Below, one piece after another: positions 9,421 to 64,000 of a DNA stretch of 64,000 nucleotides. The notes beneath the pieces are model-generated. The model was not told the DNA's origin. It saw nothing but the letters and a program-made list of their open reading frames with translations, and did no database searches. The DNA is from Heliocidaris erythrogramma (taxonomy: Eukaryota > Echinodermata > Echinoidea > Camarodonta > Echinometridae). How positions within the stretch are numbered: the stretch's first letter is position 1; each line of letters starts with the position of its first letter. The stretch is from contig CM046864.1 in assembly GCA_025617745.1 (NCBI GenBank), positions 30,421,162 through 30,485,161 on the forward strand, read 5' to 3'. The position numbers were made by a program, and so were the translations under genes.

Positions 9421-9689
9421 AGGCTTTTATCTTTCTCTTCCTCCGCTTCTCCCGCTTTTTCGCTATCGCCTTTTTTTAAGGGGCTGAATAGGGGGGGGGG
9501 GGGGATGCCCCCCTTTGCCCGGGGTGTATTTGTTTCATCGCCCCTCCCCGTATTGCTTCGACACAGCCGTGGGGTGTCTCCCATCCAATATTATCATTTT
9601 TGTTTGCTAAATAAATTCTTTCATATTTGAGTGTTCATTGAACAATGAAAATCATAATTACAATATTTTACAAATAATCCTAACCTCTT

Positions 9690-10145
9690 CTTCGATTATG
9701 AATAGCTACCCTTTTCTTCGATTATGAATAGCGACCCTCTTATTTGATTATGAATAGCGACCCTTATGAATATTGACCTTTATGAATAACGACCCTCTTT
9801 TTCTATTATGAATAGCGACCCTCTTTTTCGATTATGAGTAGCGCCCCTTATGATTAACGACCCCGATTTGGTATTATGAATATCTGTGTTATGTATAACG
9901 ACCCTCATGACTTATTATGAATAGCGGCCCTTATGAGTAATGACCCTTTTCTTCGATTATGAATAGCAACCCTCTTCTCCTATTATAAATAGCAATCCTT
10001 ATGAATAATGCTACTGATGAGTTTATGAATAGTGACCCCCTTTTCGCTTTATGAATAGCGACCCTACAGGTATAGGAAATTACACGTTATGATTAGCGGT
10101 CCTTATGAGCCACTGGTCCTTATGACTAGCGGTCCTTATGACTAG
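9690..10145 (+). repeat. Minisatellite, core TATGAATAGCGACCCT
   Basis: About 20 imperfect copies of a 'ttatgaatagcgaccct' word separated by variable spacers ('cttttcgat', 'cttat' and similar), giving a period that wanders between roughly 17 and 30 bp. Core positions mutate to AATAACGACC or GATTAGCGGTCC. No coding potential. Confidence 0.85.
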
Positions 10146-10146
10146 C

Positions 10147-10503
10147 GAGGTTATCCCTTATAAGTTACCTGTCAATAATAATCGTTTTTATCGGGATTTA
10201 GGGAATGATGATTTATGTACGTTATGTTCATTGAAGGATGTTAGAGGTGGATTCCAATATTTATTTGTATCTTTTTTTAGCAAAGAAAGATATAAATATT
10301 TTACAAGACCGTCTGCTTACACAATACGTAGATTATTCAGTACAGATACAACTTGCCATTTGAAAAAGATTGTTAAAAGGGAAGTCCAGTCCAAAAATTA
10401 CTTGGTTTTTAATAGAAGAAGAAAAATCATACCAACAGATCAAAAAAAGTTTGAGGAAAATCGGACAAATAATAAGAAAGTTATGAATTTTTTAGTGGCA
10501 TGA
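10147..10503 (+). pseudogene. C-terminal fragment of a retrotransposon ORF
   Basis: The frame contains LPVNNNRF, DLCTLC and then a YLFV..FF..ERYKYF region. This matches the C-terminal zinc-finger tail seen in many invertebrate retroelements, where a short basic segment precedes C-x2-C, then H...C. Here the first C pair is kept but the expected His and last Cys are replaced, so the finger is dead. No RT domain precedes it; the minisatellite runs right up to its 5' side. Confidence 0.5.
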
Positions 10504-10547: not shown

Positions 10548-10993
10548 AGTCATGAGTTTGTGATGTCATAGGTACACAACTCACCAGCTATTCTGTTGAT
10601 ATTCATAATACAAATTTTATTTTTTTGTCCAAGAATATGATTTCCTCATGACTTGAACCAACTTACATTTATAGGAATTTGTTTATGTATGTATACACTA
10701 ATACAGAGTAAATAATTTTCTGTAAAAATCATGATTATGAATATTTTATACAATATTCATAAAAAATGAGTGATTATTGAAATGTAATATTTGGAAAAAA
10801 TATTAATGTTTTGAAGTTCTTGAAATATTTTGTAAAGGTTTATACATGCAAAAACATAATACTGTAGATGTAACTTGGTTCAAGTTATGTGAAAACTCAT
10901 ATTCTTGGAAAAAATTTGAGAATTTGTTTTATGAACACAAACAAAAGAATTGGTGAGTTGTGTACCTATGCCATCACAAACCAATGACTGAGT
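10548..10993. mobile_element. MITE with long (about 120 bp) inverted ends
   Basis: The left arm carries TTTGTGATGTCATAGGTACA and CAACTCACCA, then AAGAATATGA and CTTGAACCAA. The same words return inverted between about 10870 and 10985. The middle is AT-rich and non-coding. The right end runs to within a few bases of the assembly gap, so the outer boundary and target duplication cannot be read. Confidence 0.7.
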
Positions 10994-10999
10994 GGCCAA

Positions 11000-11499
11000 N
11001 NNNNNNNNNNNNNNNNNNNNNNNNNNNNNNNNNNNNNNNNNNNNNNNNNNNNNNNNNNNNNNNNNNNNNNNNNNNNNNNNNNNNNNNNNNNNNNNNNNNN
11101 NNNNNNNNNNNNNNNNNNNNNNNNNNNNNNNNNNNNNNNNNNNNNNNNNNNNNNNNNNNNNNNNNNNNNNNNNNNNNNNNNNNNNNNNNNNNNNNNNNNN
11201 NNNNNNNNNNNNNNNNNNNNNNNNNNNNNNNNNNNNNNNNNNNNNNNNNNNNNNNNNNNNNNNNNNNNNNNNNNNNNNNNNNNNNNNNNNNNNNNNNNNN
11301 NNNNNNNNNNNNNNNNNNNNNNNNNNNNNNNNNNNNNNNNNNNNNNNNNNNNNNNNNNNNNNNNNNNNNNNNNNNNNNNNNNNNNNNNNNNNNNNNNNNN
11401 NNNNNNNNNNNNNNNNNNNNNNNNNNNNNNNNNNNNNNNNNNNNNNNNNNNNNNNNNNNNNNNNNNNNNNNNNNNNNNNNNNNNNNNNNNNNNNNNNNN
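11000..11499. other. Assembly gap of exactly 500 N
   Basis: 500 consecutive N. The round number suggests a nominal scaffold gap rather than a measured distance. Confidence 0.99.
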
Positions 11500-11809: not shown

Positions 11810-12325
11810 TATTTCGAAATATTAGCATGGAAAAACATAAATACCTAGGACACTGCTTTTAAAAAGGCTGGAAAATATGACATGTACGAAGCGAAATTAT
11901 ACAAGTCTACCCATACATAAACGATTAATAGTTACTACAGAAAATATACAATGAGCATAAAATTCGCTCTCATGTCCTAATATATTTCAGAAAGACTATA
12001 GCTTTACACTGATCACAATATTCAGTAAATGTATTTGTATGTTTGCATTATATGGTATCATCTATCATGTCTTTATTAATTTACTGAGTACTCATGCTGT
12101 CATTTTTTTCCAGTACTAGAGTGTATAAGCTACGAAATATTGCTAATAAACAAGAACTGCATTTTAGAGTCCCTTTTCAAGTGTTTTCCACGCATCCTCC
12201 ATATTCCTGGCGGTTAGCTCAATATTGAAATAATCGTGTTTTTGTTGCGGGTGCCGATCTTTATGCCACGGCTTTCGATCAACAATGCCGATGCCTAACT
12301 TGTGCAAAAGTATACCGCAGTATAC
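11810..12325. repeat. Tandem duplication, copy 1 (516 bp)
   Basis: Aligns base for base with 12326-12843 apart from about a dozen substitutions and a 2-bp A-run difference, so about 2-3% divergence. It covers the 3' flank and the last 54 codons of the galactosyltransferase gene. Bases 11500-11809, between the gap and this copy, show nothing recognisable. Confidence 0.9.
12164..12325 (-). pseudogene. Duplicated 3' end of the galactosyltransferase gene
   Basis: 54 codons, including the stop (12164-12166), of the gene at 12682-13794, orphaned by the tandem duplication. The only difference from the parent in this stretch is a synonymous A/G change in a Lys codon. It has no start, transmembrane segment or DxD motif and cannot make an enzyme alone. 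It could act as an alternative 3' end only if transcription read through, or it may be a haplotype assembly artefact. Confidence 0.85.
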
Positions 12326-12843
12326 TATTTCGAAATATTAGCATGGAAAAAAACATAAATACCTAGGACACTGCTTTTAAAAAGGCTGGAGAATATGACA
12401 TGTACGAAGCTAAATTAGACAAGTCTAGCCATACATAAACGATAAATAGTTACTATAGAAAATATACAAAGAGCATAAAATTCGCTCTCATGTCCTAATA
12501 TATTTCAGAAAGACTATAGCATTACACTGATCACAATATTCAGTAAATGTATTTGTATGTTTGCATTATATGGTATCATCTATCATGTCTATATTAGTTT
12601 ACTGAGTACTCATGCTGTCATTTTTTTCCAGTACTAGAGTGTATAAGCTACAAAATATTGCTAATAAACAAGAACTGCATTTTAGAGTCCCTTTTCAAGT
12701 GTTTTCCACGCATCCTCCATATTCCTGGCGGTTAGCTCAATATTGAAATAATCGTGCTTTTGTTGCGGGTGCCGATCTTTATGCCACGGCTTTCGATCAA
12801 CAATGCCGATGCCTAACTTGTGCAAAAGTATACCGCAGTATAC
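12326..12843. repeat. Tandem duplication, copy 2 (518 bp)
   Basis: Second unit of the duplication, continuous with the intact gene. The junction is abrupt: copy 1 stops after 'gcagtatac' at 12325 and 'tatttcgaaat' restarts at 12326. In copy 2 'gcagtatac' is followed by the normal coding sequence. Confidence 0.9.
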
Positions 12844-18342: not shown

Positions 18343-18576
18343 TAAGTGGTTATCGAGCATTAAACTCTAGTGGCATGACATATTTTCTTTCTGAAGATAT
18401 TATTTTGAAATGTGTTCTACAAATAGTATTTATAGTCCACGGGCAAGTAACCAACCCCCCCCCCCCCCCCCCTTCGGCACAATTTTAAATCATCTTTTTT
18501 ATGTTAGCCAGGACCCTCAGCTATCAGGATCTGCTTGTTTCTCATTAAGTTGGTGGTGGGTGTGGCCAACAGGGCC

Positions 18577-18590
18577 GTTACCATGGTAAC
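18577..18590. promoter_or_regulatory. RFX X-box-like site 1
   Basis: GTTACCATGGTAAC, a perfect palindrome matching the X-box consensus GTNRCC-N(0-3)-RGYAAC bound by RFX transcription factors. The surrounding 18 bases (18575-18592) are also perfectly palindromic. Binding is inferred. Confidence 0.5.
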
Positions 18591-18746
18591 GGATCAAGAA
18601 AATGAATTTTAGGAAAAGTCATATAATTGCAATTCACGAATCTAAAAATACTTGGTAAGCATCCTAATATATGTATTTTAAGGTGCCCAGTCGATTGCAA
18701 CCATATTCAGAGTAATTTAATGTCAAGATCATGTCCAAAAATAGCC

Positions 18747-18760
18747 GTTACTATGGAAAC
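18747..18760. promoter_or_regulatory. RFX X-box-like site 2
   Basis: GTTACTATGGAAAC, one half-site degraded relative to site 1, at the equivalent place in the next repeat subunit. Confidence 0.35.
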
Positions 18761-18867
18761 GGTACCATAAAAAGGAGGGTATTTTGGACAACTTTTTAAC
18801 TTATAAATATGAAATAGCCAAAAAGGTGTCTGCACAAGCCTAAAGTATGTTTTTTCGGTTTATGCAC

Positions 18868-19349
18868 GCTTGGGCTAAAACCACTTGGTCTAATTTCCAG
18901 ATGGGCTACCTTCATTCGGGCTAAACCCTTTTGGTCCACTCTTCATTTGGTCTAATTTGCACTTGGTCTAATAACCAGAAGGTCTAATGACCACTTGGGC
19001 TAATTATCACTTGGTCTAATTACCATTTGGTCTAATTACCATTTCGTCTACTTTATTTTGTTGTCACTTGGTCTACTACCAGTTCGTCTAATGTCAGTTT
19101 GTCTAATTCCCAGTCAGTCTAAAACTAGTTGGTCTACAGGCATTTCGTCTAAAATCCACTTGGTCTAGTATCCATTTGGTCTACATGGCATTTATATGGT
19201 CTAATGTGCACTTGGTCTAACTTTCATTTAGTCCATTTTCCATTTAGTCTAATTGTCAGTTGGTCTAAATGCCAATTTGTCTAAACATCACTTTGTCTAA
19301 TTATCACTAAGGCTAATTGCCTGTTGGGCTATTCCCTTTTCGTCTACGC
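18868..19349 (+). repeat. Degenerate minisatellite, core TTGGTCTAATT (left arm)
   Basis: Around 27 copies of a word such as CACTTGGTCTAATTAC, spaced 15-20 bp, with cores drifting to TTCGTCTAC, TTGGGCTAA and TTTGTCTAAA. The same word returns inverted at 21195-21686, so the two form very long inverted repeats. Confidence 0.9.
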
Positions 19350-21194
19350 ACCTACCATAACACTGTGCGTCATTTTGTTGGCCGTCCCTGTAAGAAAAAA
19401 AATCAGCTTAATGTAAGTCAATTAGGCCTACCAAGGTTTGAAAAAGTTTTGAAAGCTATCAAAACATATTATGATATGGAAAAGTATATATCAAAGATAA
19501 ATCTTAAAGACGATAAGTTTGAGGAAAAAATGTTTTCATTTCACCAAATGTTTCTGAGAGTCTACGTTCTCTTTGCCTGTTTTGTATGTAATACATTATT
19601 ATACACAACGTGTATTTTGTCAAACTATCCTTACACCGCTGTGCGGCTGCATATTTTGTTATATTATGGTAAGTATTTACATGATAAATCATGGGGGGAA
19701 AATATATATAAATATATGTACGATCATTTGTAAGAATTGTTATATTGATGATGAATAAAAGAACTCTGTAGAAGGGTAAAAATATAATTGAATTAAAAGA
19801 AAATGCTGCTCGGTCGCTTCGCTTCCTCGCATGACATAATTTGACTCGGGGAGGGGGGGGGGGGGGCGCAAATTCACTCTTTGCCCATGGCGTCATAATA
19901 CCTATATACGCTACTGCCTTAAAAGAAGGAAAAGAAGGCAGTGAACAAGACTAAAAAGCGGCATTTTTGTGGGCAGCAGGAGACACTTTTTGGGTGCTTG
20001 AAAAGGGGGGGGGGGGGGGTGATTGTGCACTCCGCCAACGAGCGAGTTAATTTACGTTTTAGATGAACAAATAATAATAATGATGAGGATAAGGATAATA
20101 ATAATAATAATGATAATAATAATAATAATAATAATAGTTGCATACTCTTCTTTTTCTTTCTTCTTCTCCTTCTTTTGTCGTTTTTCTTCTCTCTCTCTTA
20201 GGTCACTTGAAAATTCATAGGGGGCAACCGCCCCTGCCCCGTCCCCCTGTAGCGCCGCCCCTGAAAATAGCAGTTTGCACAGCTCAAAAGAATCAGAGAA
20301 GCTTAATGGGAGAATATTTAGTTCTTGATATGACAACAGTGTGACACCTTTGAGCAGGAACTTAGCCAGAGCTGGGGACACAGTGCCCAAAAGTTTAATA
20401 ATATTGCAGCAATTAATATATCCCCGCCCGAAGATTGCTCGCTACGCTCCTCGCACTCACTTATTGTAACTCATGGCAGTAACATAAAGTCCTATCTATC
20501 TCTTTTATTGAGAGATTATGCTTGAAATTAAACGCTTTTGCGGCATCTTCGTCATGAAATCAATATAATGCAAGCATCATGTATGACCTTCAACAAGAAC
20601 ATAATATTTTTTGATCGGTCGTTTGCAAGTTAGGAGTAAGGCAGAATTGCATATTATGTAAAGATTAGAAAATATATCCTTAACATTTAATGCGTGTTAA
20701 GTACAATGTAGGGGTACAGCTACGTGTCAAAACGCCATTTTCCCCATTCTTGTCTTCACCCTTTTTAATTAAGTTCCCCCTTTTCCAAAAATACCCTGGC
20801 ACCGCTCCTAGCTTTTAATGACTACTTGCACAAACAATTTTGTACATCGGATACCAAATAAGAACCATGAATAACAGATTATCAACCCAACAAACATTAT
20901 TTGAAGTGCAATATACAAAATCAGGTTCTTCTACTTAAGTCATGAAAGGAAGAGAAGACATATAGGATTTTTTAATTACTAAAAAATAATACTAAATAAT
21001 TGAGTTTAATAAATTAAATAATTAATACATGTATATAAAATGTAGGGATTGACTTGATATAAGCAGCAGCAAGGTGAATAACTGTTTTAATGCACAGTTA
21101 CGTATAGATGACTTCTTTGAAGTTTCATTTTTTAAAGTTTCATTTCCCTTTCCTTTCTCAATTTGCTACTAAATGGCCAGAAGAATAAATAGTA
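19350..21194. other. Interior between the inverted arrays, no gene recognised
   Basis: An open frame at 19317-19733 has a hydrophobic, AT-biased product without known motifs and starts inside the left array, so I do not call it. Also present are G runs at 19853-19866 and near 20006, (AAT)n at 20070-20135, a CT-rich stretch to 20200, and a CCGCCCCTG dispersed-repeat end at about 20254. 20400-21190 shows nothing. Confidence 0.55.
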
Positions 21195-21686
21195 ATTAGA
21201 CCAAATGGTCATTAGACTATATGAAAATTAGACCAAATGATAAGTAGCCTAACTGGTTTTTAGACAAATTGGATATTAGACCAAATGGTCATTAGACCAT
21301 ATGACAGTTAGACTAAATGATAAGTAGCCCAACTGGTTATTAGACTAAATGGAATTGGACCAAATGATAGGTAGACCATATGGTATTAGCCAAAGTAGGT
21401 GTAGCCCAAATGGATAAGAGACCATGTGGCTTGTAGACAAAATGACTGTTAGACTATTTGGAAATAGACGAAGTGAAAATTAGCCGAAGTGAAAATTAGC
21501 CCAAATGGGTTTTAGACTAAATGGGGTTAGCCAAACTGTGTATTAGACGAATTGGTTATTAGGCCAAATGGAAATTAGACGAAATGGTAAGTAGACAAAC
21601 TGGTTGTAGACAAAATGAAGTTAGACCACGTGGAGTTCGACGAACTGATGATTAGACCAAGTGGTGTTAGACCAAGCGATAGTGTA
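21195..21686 (-). repeat. Degenerate minisatellite, core AATTAGACCAA (right arm)
   Basis: Inverted counterpart of the left array: repeated ATTAGACCAAATGGT words with variants such as GTAGCCCAAATGG and TTAGACGAAATGG, at 15-20 bp spacing. Confidence 0.9.
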
Positions 21687-21866
21687 CCGTTTTTTTCTAT
21701 TAGCTAGGACCCTCAGCTATCATAATCTGCCTATTTCATGTACATCTTTGTAAATCAATAGCTATAAAATAAATGGTAAGTATCCCAGGATGTGTATACC
21801 AAGCTGCCTGCTAGATTTCAATCACAATCTGAGCCATTTACAGTCATGGGCGTGTCAAAAAAGGCC

Positions 21867-21880
21867 GTTGCCATGGAAAC
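21867..21880. promoter_or_regulatory. RFX X-box-like site 3
   Basis: GTTGCCATGGAAAC fits the X-box consensus with one weakened half. It is in the first subunit of the right copy. Confidence 0.45.
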
Positions 21881-22053
21881 GGTCCAACAAAAAGCTGTTA
21901 TATGTTAAAAAAAAATATAACTAACGATTACAAAATAGAAAGAAAATAAAAAAATATATATCGTAAGTATCCCAGGATGTGTATATCATGCTGCCTGATA
22001 GATTGCAATCACAATCTGAGCCATTTAAAGTCCTGGGCGTGTCAAAAAAGGCC

Positions 22054-22066
22054 GTTGCATGGAAAC
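22054..22066. promoter_or_regulatory. RFX X-box-like site 4, damaged
   Basis: GTTGCATGGAAAC, the same site with one C deleted, in the second subunit of the right copy. Confidence 0.25.
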
Positions 22067-22154
22067 GGACCAACAAAAAGCTGTTGTATGTGAAAAAAAC
22101 ACTATAACTAACCATTACAACATAGAAAGAAAGAAAAAAAATGTCTGCACAGTC

Positions 22155-22279
22155 TTTGAGAATGTTTTTATATTTAATACACAACTGAACCGGCTCCATC
22201 CCGCGCTAAAATTCACATGTGAAATTGAACTGTCCAATACGCTCCCATTTCTCGACGTTCTCGTGGAGAGAATTCACGT
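22155..22279 (+). pseudogene. Penelope-like RT fragment (5' piece)
   Basis: Short frame with LNRLHPALKFT and LPFLDVLVER, a conserved block of Penelope-like element reverse transcriptases just before the TSVYRKPTF block. It breaks off at 22279. The next expected block resumes at 28294, so this is the left half of an element split by inserted DNA. It is 5'-truncated by the X-box repeat. Confidence 0.8.
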
Positions 22280-37791: not shown

Positions 37792-38734
37792 ACTGTCTTA
37801 GATTGCGTGGAGAGTCTCTATGTGAGACGTTCACTATTTGCGTTATCTGCAATGCTCGCTGCTCGCAGTTTGAGCACTCTGGTGACTCCACTATGCAATT
37901 CTTCCCCACAATGTGTAACCGCACAACAAGGGTCCCAAGTCCTTGTGTTGCCATAAATCCATTATGGTAATAGCCGGGAGGGCGCATTGTTATACATAAT
38001 TTGTATTAACGCTCGCTGCACATGCAGTTTGAGCACTGTCTTAGATTGCGTGGAGAGTCTCTATGTGAGACGTTCACTATTTGCGTTATATGCAATGCTC
38101 GCTGCTCGCAGTTTGAGCACTCTGGTGACTCCACTATGCAATTCTTCCCCACAATGTGTAACCGCACAACAAGGGTCCCAAGTCCTTGTGTTGCCATAAA
38201 TCCATTATGGTAATAGCCGGGAGGGCGCATTGTTATACATAATTTGTATTAACGCTCGCTGCACATGCAGTTTGAGCACTGTCTTCGATTGCGTGGAGAG
38301 TCTCTATGTGAGACGTTCACTATTTGCGTTATATGCAATGCTCGCTGCTCGCAGTTTGAGCACTCTGGAGACTCCACTATGCAATTCTTCCCCACAATGT
38401 GTAACCGCACAACAAGGGTCCCAAGTCCTTGTGTTGCCATAAATCCATTATGGTAATAGCCGGGAGGGCGCATTGTTATACATAATTTGTATTAACGCTC
38501 GCTGCACATGCAGTTTGAGCACTGTCTTAGATTGCGTGGAGAGTCTCTATGTGAGACGTTCACTATTTGCGTTATATGCAATGCTCACTGCTCGCAGTTT
38601 GAGCACTCTGGTGACTCCACTATGCAATTCTTCCCCACAATGTGTAACCGCACAACAAGGGTCCCAAGTCCTTGTGTTGCCATAAATCCATTATGGTAAT
38701 AGCCGGGAGGGCGCATTGTTATACATAATTTGTA
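37792..38734. repeat. 243-bp satellite, about 3.9 copies
   Basis: Units start ACTGTCTTAGATTGCGTGG at 37792, 38035, 38278 and 38521. Copies differ at only a few positions. Each unit contains two related half-motifs (GCAGTTTGAGCACTCTGG and GCAGTTTGAGCACTGTC), so it arose from an older internal duplication. (AT)n borders both ends. Short open frames repeat with the unit and are not genes. Confidence 0.95.
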
Positions 38735-38759
38735 TATATATATATATATATATATACAA

Positions 38760-51695: not shown

Positions 51696-53484
51696 CCTTT
51701 AAGTATTTCTGCAAGCTATTCATTTACAACTTAACACACGTTGCTCAATGGTAGTAGCATTGTAAGTTTTACTGTCTTTCATATCATTGACACCAAATAT
51801 GAATGTATGGGATTATTAACATATTTTAATTAATAATATATCTGACGCTGATTCATTGCATCGAACTACTCAAAGCGTTTAACTGAGTAACGACTGACTG
51901 TCGATTACTATGATTCAAAAAGCAAAAAAACACAGCAATCAGAAAAATGCAATACAGAGAAAGGGAACATTTCATTCTTATCTTGAACACATTTGCACAT
52001 TTGACAGCATGCAAGTTAAGTATGATTTTCCTTCGAGCCATGTAATTTTCGACAGATTCTAATGACAAACGATTATTGCAGAAGTGGTGGAGAATAGTCC
52101 TAGTATCACTGTAACTTACACCTGATTTGTTTTTCATGTACCAAATAAAATTAGAACCATTGTTAGAAAGTGATGTGTATAAAATACAACGCATACATTT
52201 CCACATGCCTTCTTCAGTGACGACTAAAACCGGACTGTCTCAGACAGTGCTGCCAATAGCTTGAGCCATACTGCGCTGAAGATCTACGCAACGCCAGCAG
52301 GCAGGCCGAGTATTATTTAAAGCATGCACATAGCAAGATAATTATTATCACTGAAAAAAGCGACCCACTATAGGAATTCCGTCATGGTGCCACTTTATAT
52401 ATTTGTATACATGTATATATATATATTTATATATGTTTTTATATTATTCTTTCATCATTCAGTTATCCATGTAGCAAGTAGGTCGAAAGAGAGAAAACAA
52501 AGAAATATAACGTGGGGGGGGGGGGGGGGGGGTTCGACGTTTATTATACCCTCACTTTCAATTGCAGAATTATCTGTTAGTGGTACGAATTGAAGACGAC
52601 GACTTGTCAGATCAATAGCGTCCCAGAAAAAAAAACCCAAACCGAGATTTATCGACTTTAATCATAATTATCTTAATCACTGGTATGATTAATAAATGAC
52701 ACATAATTTTTTTTTTTATTTTTTATTTTTTTTTTTATGTGTAAAGCTTGAATCCTCTTCTTTCATTTGATACCACTCCTATGATACGTGCTTCAGGCAT
52801 GAGTGAATAAAGACAATAAGCAGGGCTAAAAAGTCGTTTGGCCAACGATATCTGAATTTTAAAGAGATAATCACATTTTTAGAATGTTCATATTTTGCCC
52901 TTTCATCATGATACCTCAGTCTGAAAAAAAGAAGCCAGGGATAAAAAACCCTGTTGGATATGTGTGTGTGTGTGTGTGTGTGGGGGGGGGGGGGGTTATG
53001 GGGGTCTACTTTCCCTCCATAATTTTCTGACAAGCAAAAAAAATATTTTCGTTCTAAAAGGGGGGGGGGGTACAGATCGAGATTATTGATTTCATTTTTG
53101 TACATATAGGCCAGGACCGAAATAGAACCCTTTCACACTCACTTCGTTAGAGCGCTCTAACTAAGAACCGTTCTTCAGGAGCGGTTCCCAGGTGAGTATT
53201 CACATTCTCTGCTGGACCGCTCCGTTAGACCGCTCGAGAGGAACGGTTCTTGAAGAAGCTTTGTTTGCTTTCACACTCGCGCATTTGTTTATGTCTCAAA
53301 TCGCCCAACGAGTCAAAGTGGTCTTGTTGCTATGGCAGCTCAGGTAACCGGGTCATTTTTTTTTCGCGCGGAAATCAACCCGTATACTGCCTGCCTGATG
53401 CATTTATCTCTATTTTTGTCCAAGGCTTTTTTTTTCTTTATTTTTCTTTGTTTTCATCATTCTATCGTCTTTTCTTTCTTTAGG
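51696..53484. repeat. 1.8-kb direct repeat, copy 1
   Basis: Nearly identical to 54656-56424 (a few percent divergence plus length changes in homopolymers). It contains a minus-strand frame, (AT)n near 52410-52435, a G run 52515-52532, (TG)n 52959-52981 followed by a G run, and an inverted 'attatggagggaaa' repeat copy. The end of MITE-C (CTTTCACACTCACTTCG) starts at 53130 and a T-rich tract closes the copy. Confidence 0.93.
51853..52331 (-). pseudogene. Unidentified frame in direct repeat copy 1
   Basis: Corresponds to 54813-55289 but has a TGA (near 52240) where copy 2 has CGA. No domain recognised. Differences between the two copies are mostly amino-acid changing, which suggests no selection on the protein. 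The first ATG lies inside the frame; the open stretch before it starts at GTG. Confidence 0.35.
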
Positions 53485-54054: not shown

Positions 54055-54655
54055 CGGCGGCGCTCGGGGGGCACATTGCCCCCCACATTTTCAAGTACCC
54101 CACATGTGCCCCTTTTTATCTATGAAAAGTGCCCCTTTTCATAGCTGATAAGTGCCCCCTTTCCTTCGTATAGTGCCTCTTTTTCTTTCTAATAAGTGCT
54201 ATTTTTACCTTCTGACCATTGCCCCTTTAACCTCCGACATTACCACCCCTTATGAAATCTAATAATTGCCCCTTTTTCGTCGAATTAGTGCCCATTTCCC
54301 GTTCTAATAGTGCAATTTTTCATTCTGATAAGTGCCCCTTTTCCTTCGTATAACTCTGCCCCTTCTTCTTTCTGATAAATGCCCTTTTCACCTTCTGATA
54401 AGTGCCCCCTTTAACTTCATACATTACTGCCCCTTTTGAAATATGTGCATTTTGTTTTTCGTCTGATTAGTGCCCATTTTCCGTTCAAATAGTACAATTT
54501 TCCCTTCTTATAATTGCCCTTTTTCACCTCTGATAAGTGATTCTTTTTCTTCGTATGACTGCCCCTTCTTCTTTCCAATAAGTTCCCTTTTCACATTCTA
54601 ATAAGTGCCCCTTTTAAGCTGAAATAAGTGTCCCCTTTGAAATCCGACAAGTGTC
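54055..54655 (+). repeat. Minisatellite, core AAGTGCCCCTTTT
   Basis: About 24 degenerate copies of 'tctgataagtgccccttttc' with variable spacers, period roughly 20-30 bp. It runs directly into direct-repeat copy 2 at 54656. Confidence 0.88.
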
Positions 54656-55902
54656 CCTTTAAGTATTTCTGCAAGCTATTCATTTACAACTTAACACACG
54701 TTGCTCAATGGTAGTAGCATTGTAAGTTTTACTGTCTTTCATATCATTGGCACCAAATATGAATGTATGGGATTATTAACATATTTTAATTAATAATATA
54801 TCTGACGCTGATTCATTGCATCGAACTACTCAAAGCGTTTAACTGAGTAACGACTGACTGTCGATTACTATGATTCAAAAAGCAAAAAAACACAGCAATC
54901 AGAAAAATGCAATACAGAGAAGGGGAACATCTCATTCTTATCTTGAACACATTTGCCCATTTGACAGCATGCAAGTTAAGTATGATTTTCCTTCGAGCCA
55001 TGTAATTTTCGACAGATTCTAATGACAAACGATTATCACAGAAGTGGTGGAGAATAGTCCTAGTATCACTGCAACTTACACCTGATTTGTTTTTCATGTA
55101 CCAAATAAAATTAGAACCATTGTTAGAAAGTGATGTGTATAAAATACAATGCATACATTTCCACATGCCTTCTTCAGTGACAACTAAAACCGGACTGTCT
55201 CGAACAGTGCTGCCAATAGCTTGAGCCATACCGCGCTGAAGATCTACGCAACGCCAGCAGGCAGGCCGAGTATTATTTAAAGCATGCACATAGCAAGATA
55301 ATTATTATCACTGAAAAAAGCGACCCACTATAGGAATTCCGTCATGGTGCCACTTTATATATTTATATACATGTATATATATATATATATTTATATATGT
55401 TTATATATTATTCTTTCATCATTCAGTTATCCATGTAGCAAGTAGGTCGAAAGAGAGAAAACAAAGCAATATAACGTGGGGGGGGGGGGGGGGGGTTCGA
55501 CGTTTATTATACCCTCACTTTCAATTGCAGAATTATCTGTTAGTGGTACGAATTGAAGACGACGACTTGTCAGATCAATAGCGTCCCAGAAAAAAAAAAC
55601 CCAAACCGAGATTTATCGAGTTTAATCATAATTATCTTAATCACTGGTATGATTAATAAATGACACATATGTGTAAAGCTTGAATCCTCTTCTTTCATTT
55701 GATACCACTCATATGATACGTGCTTCAGGCATGAGTGAATAAAGACAATACGCAGGGCTACCAAAAAGTCGTTTGGCCAACGATATCTGAATTTGAAAGA
55801 GATAATCACATTTTTAGAATGTTCATATTTTGCCCTTTCATCATGATACCTCAGTCGGAAAAAATGAGCCAGGGATAAAAAAACCCTGTTGGATATGTGT
55901 GT

Positions 55903-55933
<31 letters not shown>

Positions 55934-56424
55934 GTTATGGGGGTCTACTTTCCCTCCATAATTTTCTGACAAGCAAAAAAAATATTTTCGTTCTAAAAGG
56001 GGGGGGGGGTACAGATCGAGATTATTGATTTCATTTTTGTACATATAGGCCAGGACCGAAATAGAACCCTTTCACACTCACTTCGTTAGAGCGCTCTAAC
56101 TAAGAACCGTTCTTCAGGAGCGGTTCCCAGGTGAGTATTCACATTCTCTGCTGGACCGCTCCGTTAGACCGCTCGAGAGGAACGGTTCTTGAAGAAGCTT
56201 TGTTTGCTTTCACACTCGCGCATTTGTTTATGTCTCAAATCGCCCAACGAGTCAAAAACATGGTCTTGTTGCTATGGCAGCTCAGGTAACCGGGTCATTT
56301 TTTTTTCGCGCGGAAATCAACCCGTATACTGCCTGCCTGAGGCATTTATCTCTATTTTTGTCCAAGGCTTTTTTTTTCTTTATTTTTCTTTGTTTTCATC
56401 ATTCTGTCGTCTTTTTTTTTTTAG
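54656..56424. repeat. 1.8-kb direct repeat, copy 2
   Basis: Collinear with copy 1 from 'cctttaagtatttctgcaagc' to a T-rich 'ttagg'. It lacks a T-rich insertion that copy 1 has near 52705-52738. MITE-C end sequence starts at 56069. Beyond 56424 the sequence is the T-rich array rather than the copy-1 continuation. Confidence 0.93.
54813..55289 (-). CDS. Hypothetical frame in direct repeat copy 2
   Basis: 158 codons open, the first being GTG; the first ATG is about 20 codons in. It has five Cys in the first half, a WRC..L motif and a hydrophobic stretch (SLYCIFLIAVFFCFL) near the C-terminus that could be a membrane segment. No known family recognised. Copy 1 carries a stop, so I rate this as repeat-internal sequence rather than a proven gene. 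Confidence 0.2.
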   Translation of the reverse strand: MHALNNTRPACWRCVDLQRGMAQAIGSTVRDSPVLVVTEEGMWKCMHCILYTSLSNNGSNFIWYMKNKSGVSCSDTRTILHHFCDNRLSLESVENYMARRKIILNLHAVKWANVFKIRMRCSPSLYCIFLIAVFFCFLNHSNRQSVVTQLNALSSSMQ

Positions 56425-56463
56425 GTTTCTTATGTTTTTCTTTGTTTTTAATCATTTTATCAT

Positions 56464-58036: not shown

Positions 58037-59244
58037 TTACACGCGAGATAAAGCGTCTGCAATAACATTGTCCTTTCCTGGCACATGTCGAATGTCCAAG
58101 CTGTACTCTTGTAGCAGCAAACTCCATCGTCTCAGTCTTTGGTTTTTGTTTTTCATTTTGTTGACAAATGTCAGGGGGTTATGGTCAGTTAGTACCCTGA
58201 CTGGATGTTGAGATCCACTGACGTACACGTCAAAATGTCCAAGTCCATGTATCAAGGCTAGTGTTTCCTTCTCAACAGTAGAATAGTTCTTCTGACTTGC
58301 ACAAAATTTCTTTGAGGCCTTTCACACTCACTTCTGGACCGCTCCAAGTTAGAGCGCTCCAGAGGAACGGTTCTTGAAGAACGCTTCGTTTGCTTTCACA
58401 CTCACCGCATTTTTTTATGTCTCGAATCGCTCAACGAGTCAAAGTGGTCTTGTTGCTATGGCAGCTCAGATCAGCGGCTCAAATTTTTCGCGCGGAATTT
58501 CAAACCGTATAATGCGCTGTGCCGCTGCCCGGTCGGTCTGTCGTATCAATGTATCAAATCACCCATTGATTTCCCGCGCCACACACACTCACTTCCGGTT
58601 GAAGTAAGCTTTAGGATCGCTTTGCTTTCACACTGACACGTTGGAGCGCTCTAACGAGGAACCGTTCCTCAAGACCACCTCGCGAGGTGGTCTTCTGGAG
58701 CGTTCCAGAAGTACGCTTCCTGGACCACTTGAGCATTCACACTCACCTGGGAACCGCTCCAGAGGAACCGTTCTTAGTTAGAGCGCTCTAACGAAGTGAG
58801 TGTGAAAGGGCTCTATGAGAAGAATGATATGGGACGGTCGACTCCATCTGCATCCTTTTGAGTCAACACGGCACCAGCATCCACATCACTCGCATCCACC
58901 ACGAGGCCGAATGGCTGGTTGAAATCCGGAGCCATCAGTACAGGGTTGACTAGCATCATTGAGTCCGATGCTCCTAGCAACGGACGGCCAAAGGGGATTG
59001 GTTGTTGGTTGGAGCCGGCGTCTTCACACAGGGGGTGAGGTGAAGGTCCCATCTTGTCTAAGAACACCTGGGCCTCTCCTGCCGGATCCTCATTCCACCT
59101 CTGTAGGGGTCCTGCCGCTGCCTCAGCAGAGAATGGCTTGACTCCGCCACATTCAACAATGCCTATATGACCAGGAAATTGCCTCTCACTACCTGTGAAA
59201 TCCTCTGTCATATTATTCACTGCTAACTGTGCAGCAGACAACTG
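58037..59244 (-). pseudogene. Gypsy-type RT remnant and RNase H
   Basis: RNase H is recognisable: VLMAPDFNQPFGLVVDASDVDAGAVL near 58900, then, after MITE-C (58318-58809), NYSTVEKETLALI, LTDHNPLTFV and VPGKDNVIADALSRV ending near 58037. Between 59244 and 58950 the RT thumb/connection sequence is scrambled by frameshifts (SAAQLAVN, FPGHIG, ECGGVKPFSAEA). No complete polymerase can be made. Confidence 0.85.
58318..58809. mobile_element. MITE-C inside the RNase H region
   Basis: 492 bp with ends CCTTTCACACTCACTTC and GAAGTGAGTGTGAAAGG and several internal 'gagcgctctaac' / 'gaaccgttctt' inverted motifs. Removing it restores continuity of the RNase H motifs. If the ends are trimmed by one base, GGC flanks both sides, a possible 3-bp target duplication. 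Related end sequence is found at 53130 and 56069. Confidence 0.8.
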
Positions 59245-62082: not shown

Positions 62083-62217
62083 TGTTACGGGCCGCTCCCT
62101 GCCCGTATCCCAGGTTCCCTGCCTTATATTTAAGTAGACAGCACAACAACAGATAACTCTGGAAAACCGGTTATAAGTTAATAAAACTCCATGTTGAATC
62201 TCCTCTTGGTCTCGATC
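62083..62217 (-). repeat. 5' LTR, truncated
   Basis: Matches 56464-56595 with one 3-bp insertion and few substitutions, then is cut off after 'ctcgatc'. About 41 bp of the U3 end are missing where the T-rich array begins. Confidence 0.85.
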
Positions 62218-64000
62218 CTTGTTTCCTTTTGCTTTTTCTTTGTTTTTATCATTCTATCTTTCTATATTTCCTTGTTTCCTTTTGCTTTTCTTTGTTTTTA
62301 TCATTCTATCGTTTTATCTTTCTATCTTTCCTTGTTTTCCTTTGTTTTTCTTTATTTTTATCATTGTTTCATTTTCTCTTCTATCTTTCCTTTTTTTTTC
62401 TTTGTTTTCATAATTCTGTCGTCATTTCTTTCTTTAGATTTCTTATGTTTTTCTTTGTTTTTGATCATTTTATCATTCTATATTTCCTTGTTTCCTTTTG
62501 CTTTTCTTTGTTTTTATCATTCTATCGTTTATCTTTCTATCTTTCCTTGTTTTCTTTTGTTTTTATCATTCTATCGTTTTATCTTTCTATCTTTCCTTGT
62601 TTTCTTTCTTATTCTTTGTTTTCATCATCTTATCGTCTTTTTTTCTTCAGATTTATGTTTTTCTTTGTTTTTATTATTCTATCGTTTTATATTTCTATCT
62701 TTCCTTGTTTTCTTTTTTTTTTCTTTGTTTTCATCATCCTATCTTATTTTTTTCTTCAGATTTATGTTTTTCTTTGTTTTTATTATTCTATCGTTTTATA
62801 TTTCTATCTTTCCTTGTTTTCTTTTTTTTTTCTTTGTTTTCATCATCCTATCTTATTTTTTTCTTCAGATTTATGTTTTTCTTTGTTTTTATCATTCTAT
62901 CGTTTTATCTTTCTATCTTTCCTTGTTTTCTTTCTTATTCTTTGTTTTCATCATCTTATCGTCTTTTTTTCTTCAGATTTATGTTTTTCTTTGTTTTTAT
63001 TATTCTTCCATTTTCTCTTCTATCTTTCCTTTTTTTTTCTTTGTTTTCATAATTCAGTCGTCTTTTCTTTCTTTAGATTTCTTATATGTTTCTTTATTTT
63101 TTATCATTCTATCGTTTTATCTTTCTATCTTTCCTCGTTTTTTCTTCTGCTGTTCTTTGTTTTCATCATCCTATTGTCTTTCCTTTCTTTATATTTCTTA
63201 TGTTGTTTTTTTCATTCTTTTGTTTTATCTTTTTATCTTTCCTTGTTTTCCTTTGTTGCTCTTTGTTTTTATCATTCTATCATTTTCTCTCCTATCTTTC
63301 CTTCTTTCTTTTGTTTTTATTTGTTTTTTCATTGTTCTATCTTACCATCTTTCCTTGTTTTCTTTTGTTTTTCTTTGGTTTATCATTTTTATCATTTTCT
63401 CTCCTATCTTTCCTTCTTTCTTTTGTTTTTATTTGTTTTTCCATTGTTCTATCTTTCTATCTTTCCTTGTTTTCTTTTTTTTTCTTTGTTTTCATCATCC
63501 TATCTTATTTTTTTCTTCAGATTTATGTTTTTCTTTGTTTTTATCATTCTATCGTTTTATCTTTCTATCTTTCCTCGTTTTTTCTTCTGCTGTTCTTTGT
63601 TTTCATCATCCTATTGTCTTTCTTTTCTTTATATTTCTTATGTTGTTTTTTTCATTCTTTTGTTTTATCTTTTTATCTTTCCTTGTTTTCCTTTGTTGCT
63701 CTTTGTTTTTATCATTCTATCATTTTCTCTCCTATCTTTCCTTCTTTCTTTTGTGTTTATTTGTTTTTTTCATTGTTCTATCTTACCATCTTTCCTTGTT
63801 TTCTTTTGTTTTTCTTTGGTTTATCATTTTTATCATTTTCTCTCCTATCTTTCCTTCTTTCTTTTGTTTGTATTTGTTTTTCCATTGTTCTATCTTTCTA
63901 TCTTTCCTTGTTTTCTTTTGTTTTTCTTTGTTTTTATCATTCTATCATTTTCTCTTCAATTCTTTCCATGTTTTCCTTTGTTTTTATCATTCTGTCATTT
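62218..64000 (+). repeat. T-rich hierarchical tandem array
   Basis: Built from words such as 'tctttgtttttatcattctatcg' and 'tatctttctatctttccttgtttt'. A 109-bp higher-order period is visible at 62648, 62757 and 62866, and a 440-bp period between about 63131 and 63571. It runs off the window. The same sequence precedes the LTR element (about 56365-56463). Long open frames of Phe/Leu/Ser are composition artefacts. Confidence 0.9.

Follow-up and report, generated by a model that had tools for sequence, protein, structure and literature searches.

The question raised by this locus is whether two arrays of one short word, which face each other in opposite orientation within the 64,000-nucleotide stretch of DNA analyzed here (the window), are the arms of a transposable element of the fold-back type and, if so, where that element ends, what it landed in and which enzyme moves it. 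Knowledge of fold-back elements goes back to 1980 for flies and to 1983 for sea urchins, as dated by the citations in one account (PMC4079207). The window was placed on contig C12 of a genome of 1.064 Gb in 26 contigs, and sequence comparisons across this genome make it very probable that the window contains a member of a large, non-autonomous family of fold-back DNA transposons of the cut-and-paste type, probably in a sea urchin. This kind of element is long known, and the window copy is ordinary in kind and well supported.

The two facing inverted arrays described in the initial annotation were both recovered. The left arm (18867–19351, plus strand) is made of 30 units of a word of the TTGGTCTAATTACCA type, and the right arm (21192–21678, minus strand) of 31 units of the same word inverted, with the units in both being mostly 15–16 bp. 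When up to three mismatches are allowed, the word occurs 41 times in the window and 36 of these occurrences lie inside the two arms, whereas 100 shuffles gave 10.8 occurrences per window on average and never more than 19. No other array of at least four units was found in the window, nor was any array found when the window was read backwards as a control. The two arms are also predicted to pair with each other, as folding one against the other gave a single-strand pairing energy of −201.9 kcal/mol, the corresponding values being −52.5 kcal/mol (sd 5.5) for the mean of 60 dinucleotide shuffles and −24.9 kcal/mol for the wrong orientation. The arrays, their orientation, their folding and the different middles described below thus all bear out the proposed fold-back architecture, in which long convergent inverted arms of short tandem repeats surround a variable middle.

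Such pairs are frequent elsewhere in the genome. With at most one mismatch, the word is found genome-wide 2362 + 2429 times (58 + 69 in the reversed control). For contig C1, 28 exact-word places were listed, and 20 stretches of 10 kb surrounding the first 22 of these were fetched. At 17 of these 20 sites a plus array is followed by a minus array, so that neither single arrays nor random orientations predominate. These convergent elements range from 1.5 to 4.4 kb in length, and one of them (L028) has three arrays rather than two, the third being short. At the three non-convergent sites there are either two minus arrays (L013) or one array (L017 and L025). L013 and L017 match an arm together with the middle and, from this resemblance, look like truncated copies of the common class, while L025 matches the word arrays only and is an unplaced remnant. 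The word arrays are absent from 19 loci that were picked independently of the word (L033–L051; 58,917 bases). Two word units in succession were not found in a scan of viral contigs. One of four strings of 10–13 letters from the word is present in 37 open papers, and none of the 20 of these that were listed was on sea urchins as judged by its title.

The ends of the element were set by comparing the 18 convergent elements (17 fetched plus the window copy) with each other and by relatives of the window site that lack the element. On this basis the window contains a complete, non-autonomous fold-back element of 2832 bp (18857–21688, plus strand). The arrays lie where the initial annotation had put them, but the true ends are some 10 bp past each array. 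What the elements have in common starts 10 bp before each array is reached, with GGTTTATGCA at one end and GGTACACCGT at the other. In the window, the left terminal motif, GGTTTATGCA, is at 18857–18866 (plus strand), outside the array, and the right terminal motif, which reads inward as GGTACACTAT where the class consensus is GGTACACCGT, is at 21679–21688 (minus strand). The left motif is exact in 12 of the 14 elements that share the middle of the window copy (class 1), the exceptions being L010, with one change, and L027, with a one-base deletion. Both ends begin with GG in 12 of the 14 as well, the exceptions here being L023, in which one end starts with AG, and L027, with its one-base deletion. 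These common ends recur across unrelated flanks among the 18 elements, and the left end joined to the first word (GGTTTATGCACGCTTGG, at most two mismatches) occurs 577 times in the genome, the reversed control giving 32. Two elements with other middles, L015 and L016, end in GGTTTATTGC and GGTAAATTGC, and a third, L028, has GGTTTATTGC and a right end without the GG motif. Since L015 and L016 have both end types and L028 has the first, the two types are kept distinct across classes. The remaining element with another middle, L009, carries neither.

Just outside these ends the window element is flanked by a target-site duplication, with a left copy, GTTTTTTC, at 18849–18856 and a right copy, GTTTTTTTC, at 21689–21697 (both plus strand), the latter being one T longer. 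Flanks were compared by a script that takes the bases just outside each element at lengths of 7–10 with shifts of one base. The match score was at least 7 in 15 of the 18 elements, the window included, and at most 6 in 306 mismatched flank pairs that served as a control. When GG was taken as the start of each end, inspection by eye gave a duplication of exactly 8 bp in nine elements, in four of which (L018, L021, L023 and L027) a ninth base could be counted, and one of exactly 9 bp in three. It is imperfect in L019, L026 and the window element, where the two copies differ by the one T, and a duplication was not seen in the other three of the 18 elements, L009, L015 and L028.

An immobile origin, with two minisatellites lying side by side by chance or one of them being duplicated in inverted orientation, would agree with the gain and loss of whole units (15, 16 or 32 bp) that is seen in the arms between copies. 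Given the convergent pairs at 17 of 20 sites, the common ends, the 8–9 bp duplications and the site relatives without the element, such an origin is extremely improbable, and chance minisatellites are rejected on account of the site relatives that are empty and the mismatched-flank control. Nor does either arm seem to have been copied recently from the other in inverted form, because the unit-by-unit register between them is weak, with an unrotated score of 164 and a best rotation of 170, where 300 shuffles of the unit order gave a mean of 143 (sd 10.6) and a maximum of 178. The likeness between arms is about 70% within one element and also 70% between different elements, and this equality, together with the whole-unit changes, indicates that the arms are old, separately inherited arrays.

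The direct repeats on the outer flanks are present, as the initial annotation had reported, although its explanation of them as target-site duplications or recombination products did not hold, the real duplication being the one of 8–9 bp. By alignment, these repeats are successive units of a tandem repeat into which the element landed. The target DNA to the left of the insertion (18490–18856, plus strand), which is outside the element, is a unit of a tandem repeat family (A) of about 357 bp, and that to the right (21689–22182, plus strand) is the next unit or units. A genome search with this repeat gave 1333 first-look candidates, and the 40 that were scored include A-A tandems. In L035 and L037 the alignment crosses the insertion point into the next repeat unit without interruption, and nothing in L035–L039 matched the element sequence. 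In L033 and L034, which are close relatives of the occupied site, the BLAST pieces likewise pass from one repeat unit into the next. Their identity to the window is 97% in the left flank and 94–95% in the right, with the element absent, where the matches to the element that are shown amount to just 66–70 bases of AAT-type simple repeat.

These relatives also decide whether the whole block at 18.5–22.2 kb, including the outer direct repeats, could be one LTR-like unit, as might be thought from the way in which the outer repeats abut the element on both sides and from the four near-identical copies of flank plus element on contig C12. The outer repeat is, however, a tandem family of its own that is found without the element in L033–L039, which leaves this reading with a vanishingly small probability. 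Moreover, the block is not always present as one unit, as L033 and L034 hold both flanks and no element, and by these two loci the LTR-like whole block is ruled out. In the other copies on C12 (L029, L031 and L032) the window flank is matched at 99% or more and the element at 98.6–99.1% within the approximately 1.5 kb that these loci reach, and their middles are 99–100% alike. These copies probably exist because the occupied block was copied after the insertion. The approximately 357-bp repeat itself contains perfect or near-perfect palindromes of the CCGTTACCATGGTAACGG type, at 18575–18592 and near 18745, 21865 and 22052, which resemble RFX X-box sites.

Between the arms is a middle segment (19352–21191, with no strand assigned) that is common to the class 1 elements, among which it varies by deletions and insertions. 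When it was searched against the genome, 1282 first-look candidates were obtained and 40 of these were scored. That inverted pairs of this word should also enclose different interiors proved to be the case, as the middle of the window copy is found in 14 of the 18 elements and other middles in four (L009, L015, L016 and L028), of which those of L015 and L028 are partly alike. The interior had been described as lacking a transposase and this agrees with what was found, since no transposase is recognized in the middle segment and none was seen by eye among the listed frames of the 18 elements (up to four of at least 80 codons per element). The element appears to make no protein of its own.

The arms and the middle have not diverged to the same extent. 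Over 91 class 1 pairs, which are not independent of each other, mean divergence is 3.7% for the left arm, 6.7% for the right arm and 8.4% for the middle, and the middle diverges more than the left arm in 88 of the 91 and more than the right arm in 71 of the 91. The comparison of arm with middle is somewhat biased, because the sites were picked by an exact 15-bp word of the arms, which favors arms that are well kept. Among the pairs shown individually, L022 and L026 have right arms with shorter alignments and lower identity, and this probably raises the value for the right arm. Arms that are less diverged than the middle are what is expected if an enzyme needs them, and their constancy may reflect such a requirement in transposition.

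Other repeats were observed in the window. A word array of the TTATGAATAGCGACCC type, with periods of 16–84, is at 9684–10147 and has no inverted partner in the self-comparison of the window, and about 440 bases at 10548–10989 have 74% identity to their own reverse complement. A tandem duplication of approximately 517 bp (11810–12843, 97% alike) is near a run of 500 Ns (11000–11499), and a young tandem array with a 243-bp unit (3.9 copies, 99% alike) is at 37792–38735. Two direct copies of 1.8 kb (51696–53484 and 54656–56425) are 96% alike and have between them an array of a 23-bp word (about 54106–54650), with more pieces of the same sequence at 58321–58816, and a long pyrimidine-rich array with periods of 108 and 440 (62216–64000) runs off the end of the window.

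Besides Tm1 of nematodes (see below), the closest parallel known to us is provided by the TU elements of Strongylocentrotus purpuratus, reportedly described by Liebermann and colleagues in 1983 and by Hoffman-Liebermann and colleagues in 1985. These are said to be fold-back elements in which the arms have an outer domain of tandem units of about 15 bp, to generate 8-bp duplications, and to fall into classes, one with a common middle that varies by deletions and insertions and another with many different middles. The family analyzed here has units of 15–16 bp, an exact 8-bp duplication in nine elements, one class with a shared middle (14 of 18) together with heterogeneous middles (4 of 18), and also a sea urchin as its host, as far as can be told from a match to the bindin family in the genome (E 2.1e-68) that has a second, exon-like bindin match in its vicinity. 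Bindin is a sperm protein of sea urchins and their close kin. No bindin match was found in 14 control genomes, and these are no test against other animals, since those that gave MULE or Merlin matches were prokaryotes. A difference from TU is that no inner arm domain was noticed here. The window element is probably of the TU type or closely related to it. Among the open papers listed in searches for TU or fold-back elements, none dealt with TU.

Fold-back elements of other animals share the plan of this family to different degrees. Galileo of Drosophila, which belongs to the P superfamily, has 7-bp duplications and no 16-bp word, and both of these features are unlike those of the window family. 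Its arms resemble those described here in being long and internally repetitive. The repeats of these Galileo arms hold transposase binding sites, as given in the part of the source available (PMC4079207). Tetris of Drosophila virilis, in the same partial account, is likewise an apparently non-autonomous fold-back element with duplications of similar length (8–10 bp) and a modular middle, and it differs in having units of about 220 bp and in feeding satellite DNA (PMC4079207). Tm1 of the nematode Meloidogyne is a Mutator/Phantom fold-back family with many copies that lack coding potential and, so far as the accessible portion of its description goes, it has asymmetric short ends outside the arms, duplications of 8–10 bp and units of 13–15 bp, where those here are 15–16 bp (PMC3169594). 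Tm1 has a different word, the two arms of one Tm1 element are on average 93% alike compared with about 70% here, and transposase-coding copies exist in Tm1 (PMC3169594, as far as available), whereas none was found among the elements examined here.

How might such an element move? A transposase that is made elsewhere, and so acts in trans, would recognize the ends of the element. Each word unit would be a putative binding site for this enzyme, such that the arms serve as landing platforms with multiple sites, and the element would be excised and then reinserted by means of a staggered cut of 8–9 bp. A transposase gene and these arms in one element were not found among the elements and loci examined. 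As to the superfamily of the enzyme, a MULE (Mutator superfamily, Phantom-like) comes close to an even chance while falling short of it, Merlin (IS1595-type) is a possible candidate with a lower claim, and another superfamily altogether is unlikely. The anatomy of the element slightly favors MULE.

A MULE transposase is what has been proposed for Tm1, which, in the accessible part of that report, has the same layout as the window element, with asymmetric end motifs of 7 bp outside arms of 13–15 bp units and duplications of 8–10 bp, and with inward ends (CGGTTAA and GGGTAGG, the latter complemented from the printed motif) that are close to the GGTTTA and GGTACA found here (PMC3169594). The genome also contains 31 MULE matches. 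However, no word array is present at any of the nine of these that were taken as loci (L040–L048), eight of which show just approximately 1.5 kb beside the match, and none of seven matches has a listed exact word or end less than 10 kb away. This proximity check covered C1–C5 and the exact matches listed there, with words listed into C3 and ends into C5, and it omits two MULE matches on C5 that are past the listed part. In addition, exact 8-bp duplications outnumber those of 9 bp here (nine elements to three, by eye), while those of Tm1 are mostly 9 bp. The mark of Phantom is a FLYWCH finger, and Pfam calls no such finger in the frames of L041, L043, L045 and L047, nor in L048. One of these loci (L048:1035–3596) contains an open MULE transposase frame of 853 amino acids with a sub-threshold match to a PHD finger at its end. 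Three other MULE matches have the same score as L048, and two of them share the same open frame of 861 codons.

Merlin elements are described, in the part of the source available, as having terminal 5′-GG and duplications of 8 or 9 bp (PMC8101967), both of which fit the elements analyzed here. The genome has 52 matches to the catalytic domain of Merlin, 20 of them in stop-free frames of at least 350 codons. At the best Merlin match (L049), an open reading frame of the Merlin type is preceded by a small inverted-repeat element (43–310) that starts with GGTTTATGCA, identical to the left end of the window element. By eye, however, this small element has no target duplication and its likeness stops after the first 10 bp, and its start may be due to chance. 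As with MULE, no word array was found at the three loci taken from the 52 matches (L049–L051), where the sequence of eleven of the 12 transposase loci (L040–L051) extends just approximately 1.5 kb past the match, the 19 Merlin matches on C1–C5 all lie more than 10 kb from any exact word or end that was listed, and the genome's own Merlin elements did not have their ends located. A fold-back family that is mobilized by Merlin, with approximately 30 binding sites per arm and distinct ends (GGTTTAT.. and GGTA..) kept across classes with unrelated middles, must be considered rather doubtful.

As far as the available parts of the sources extend, fold-back elements have been credited to two superfamilies, Mutator and P. 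The Merlin reading, if true, would add a third to these and would identify the enzyme behind TU-like elements. To our knowledge, the enzyme that moves the fold-back elements of sea urchins has not been named. The genome analyzed here supplies exact ends, hundreds of matching ends, copies of the target without the element and more than one class of element, and the copies examined suggest that arms made of arrays can vary less than the interior they enclose. To address the question of the enzyme, one can now look for a coding copy that has these ends.
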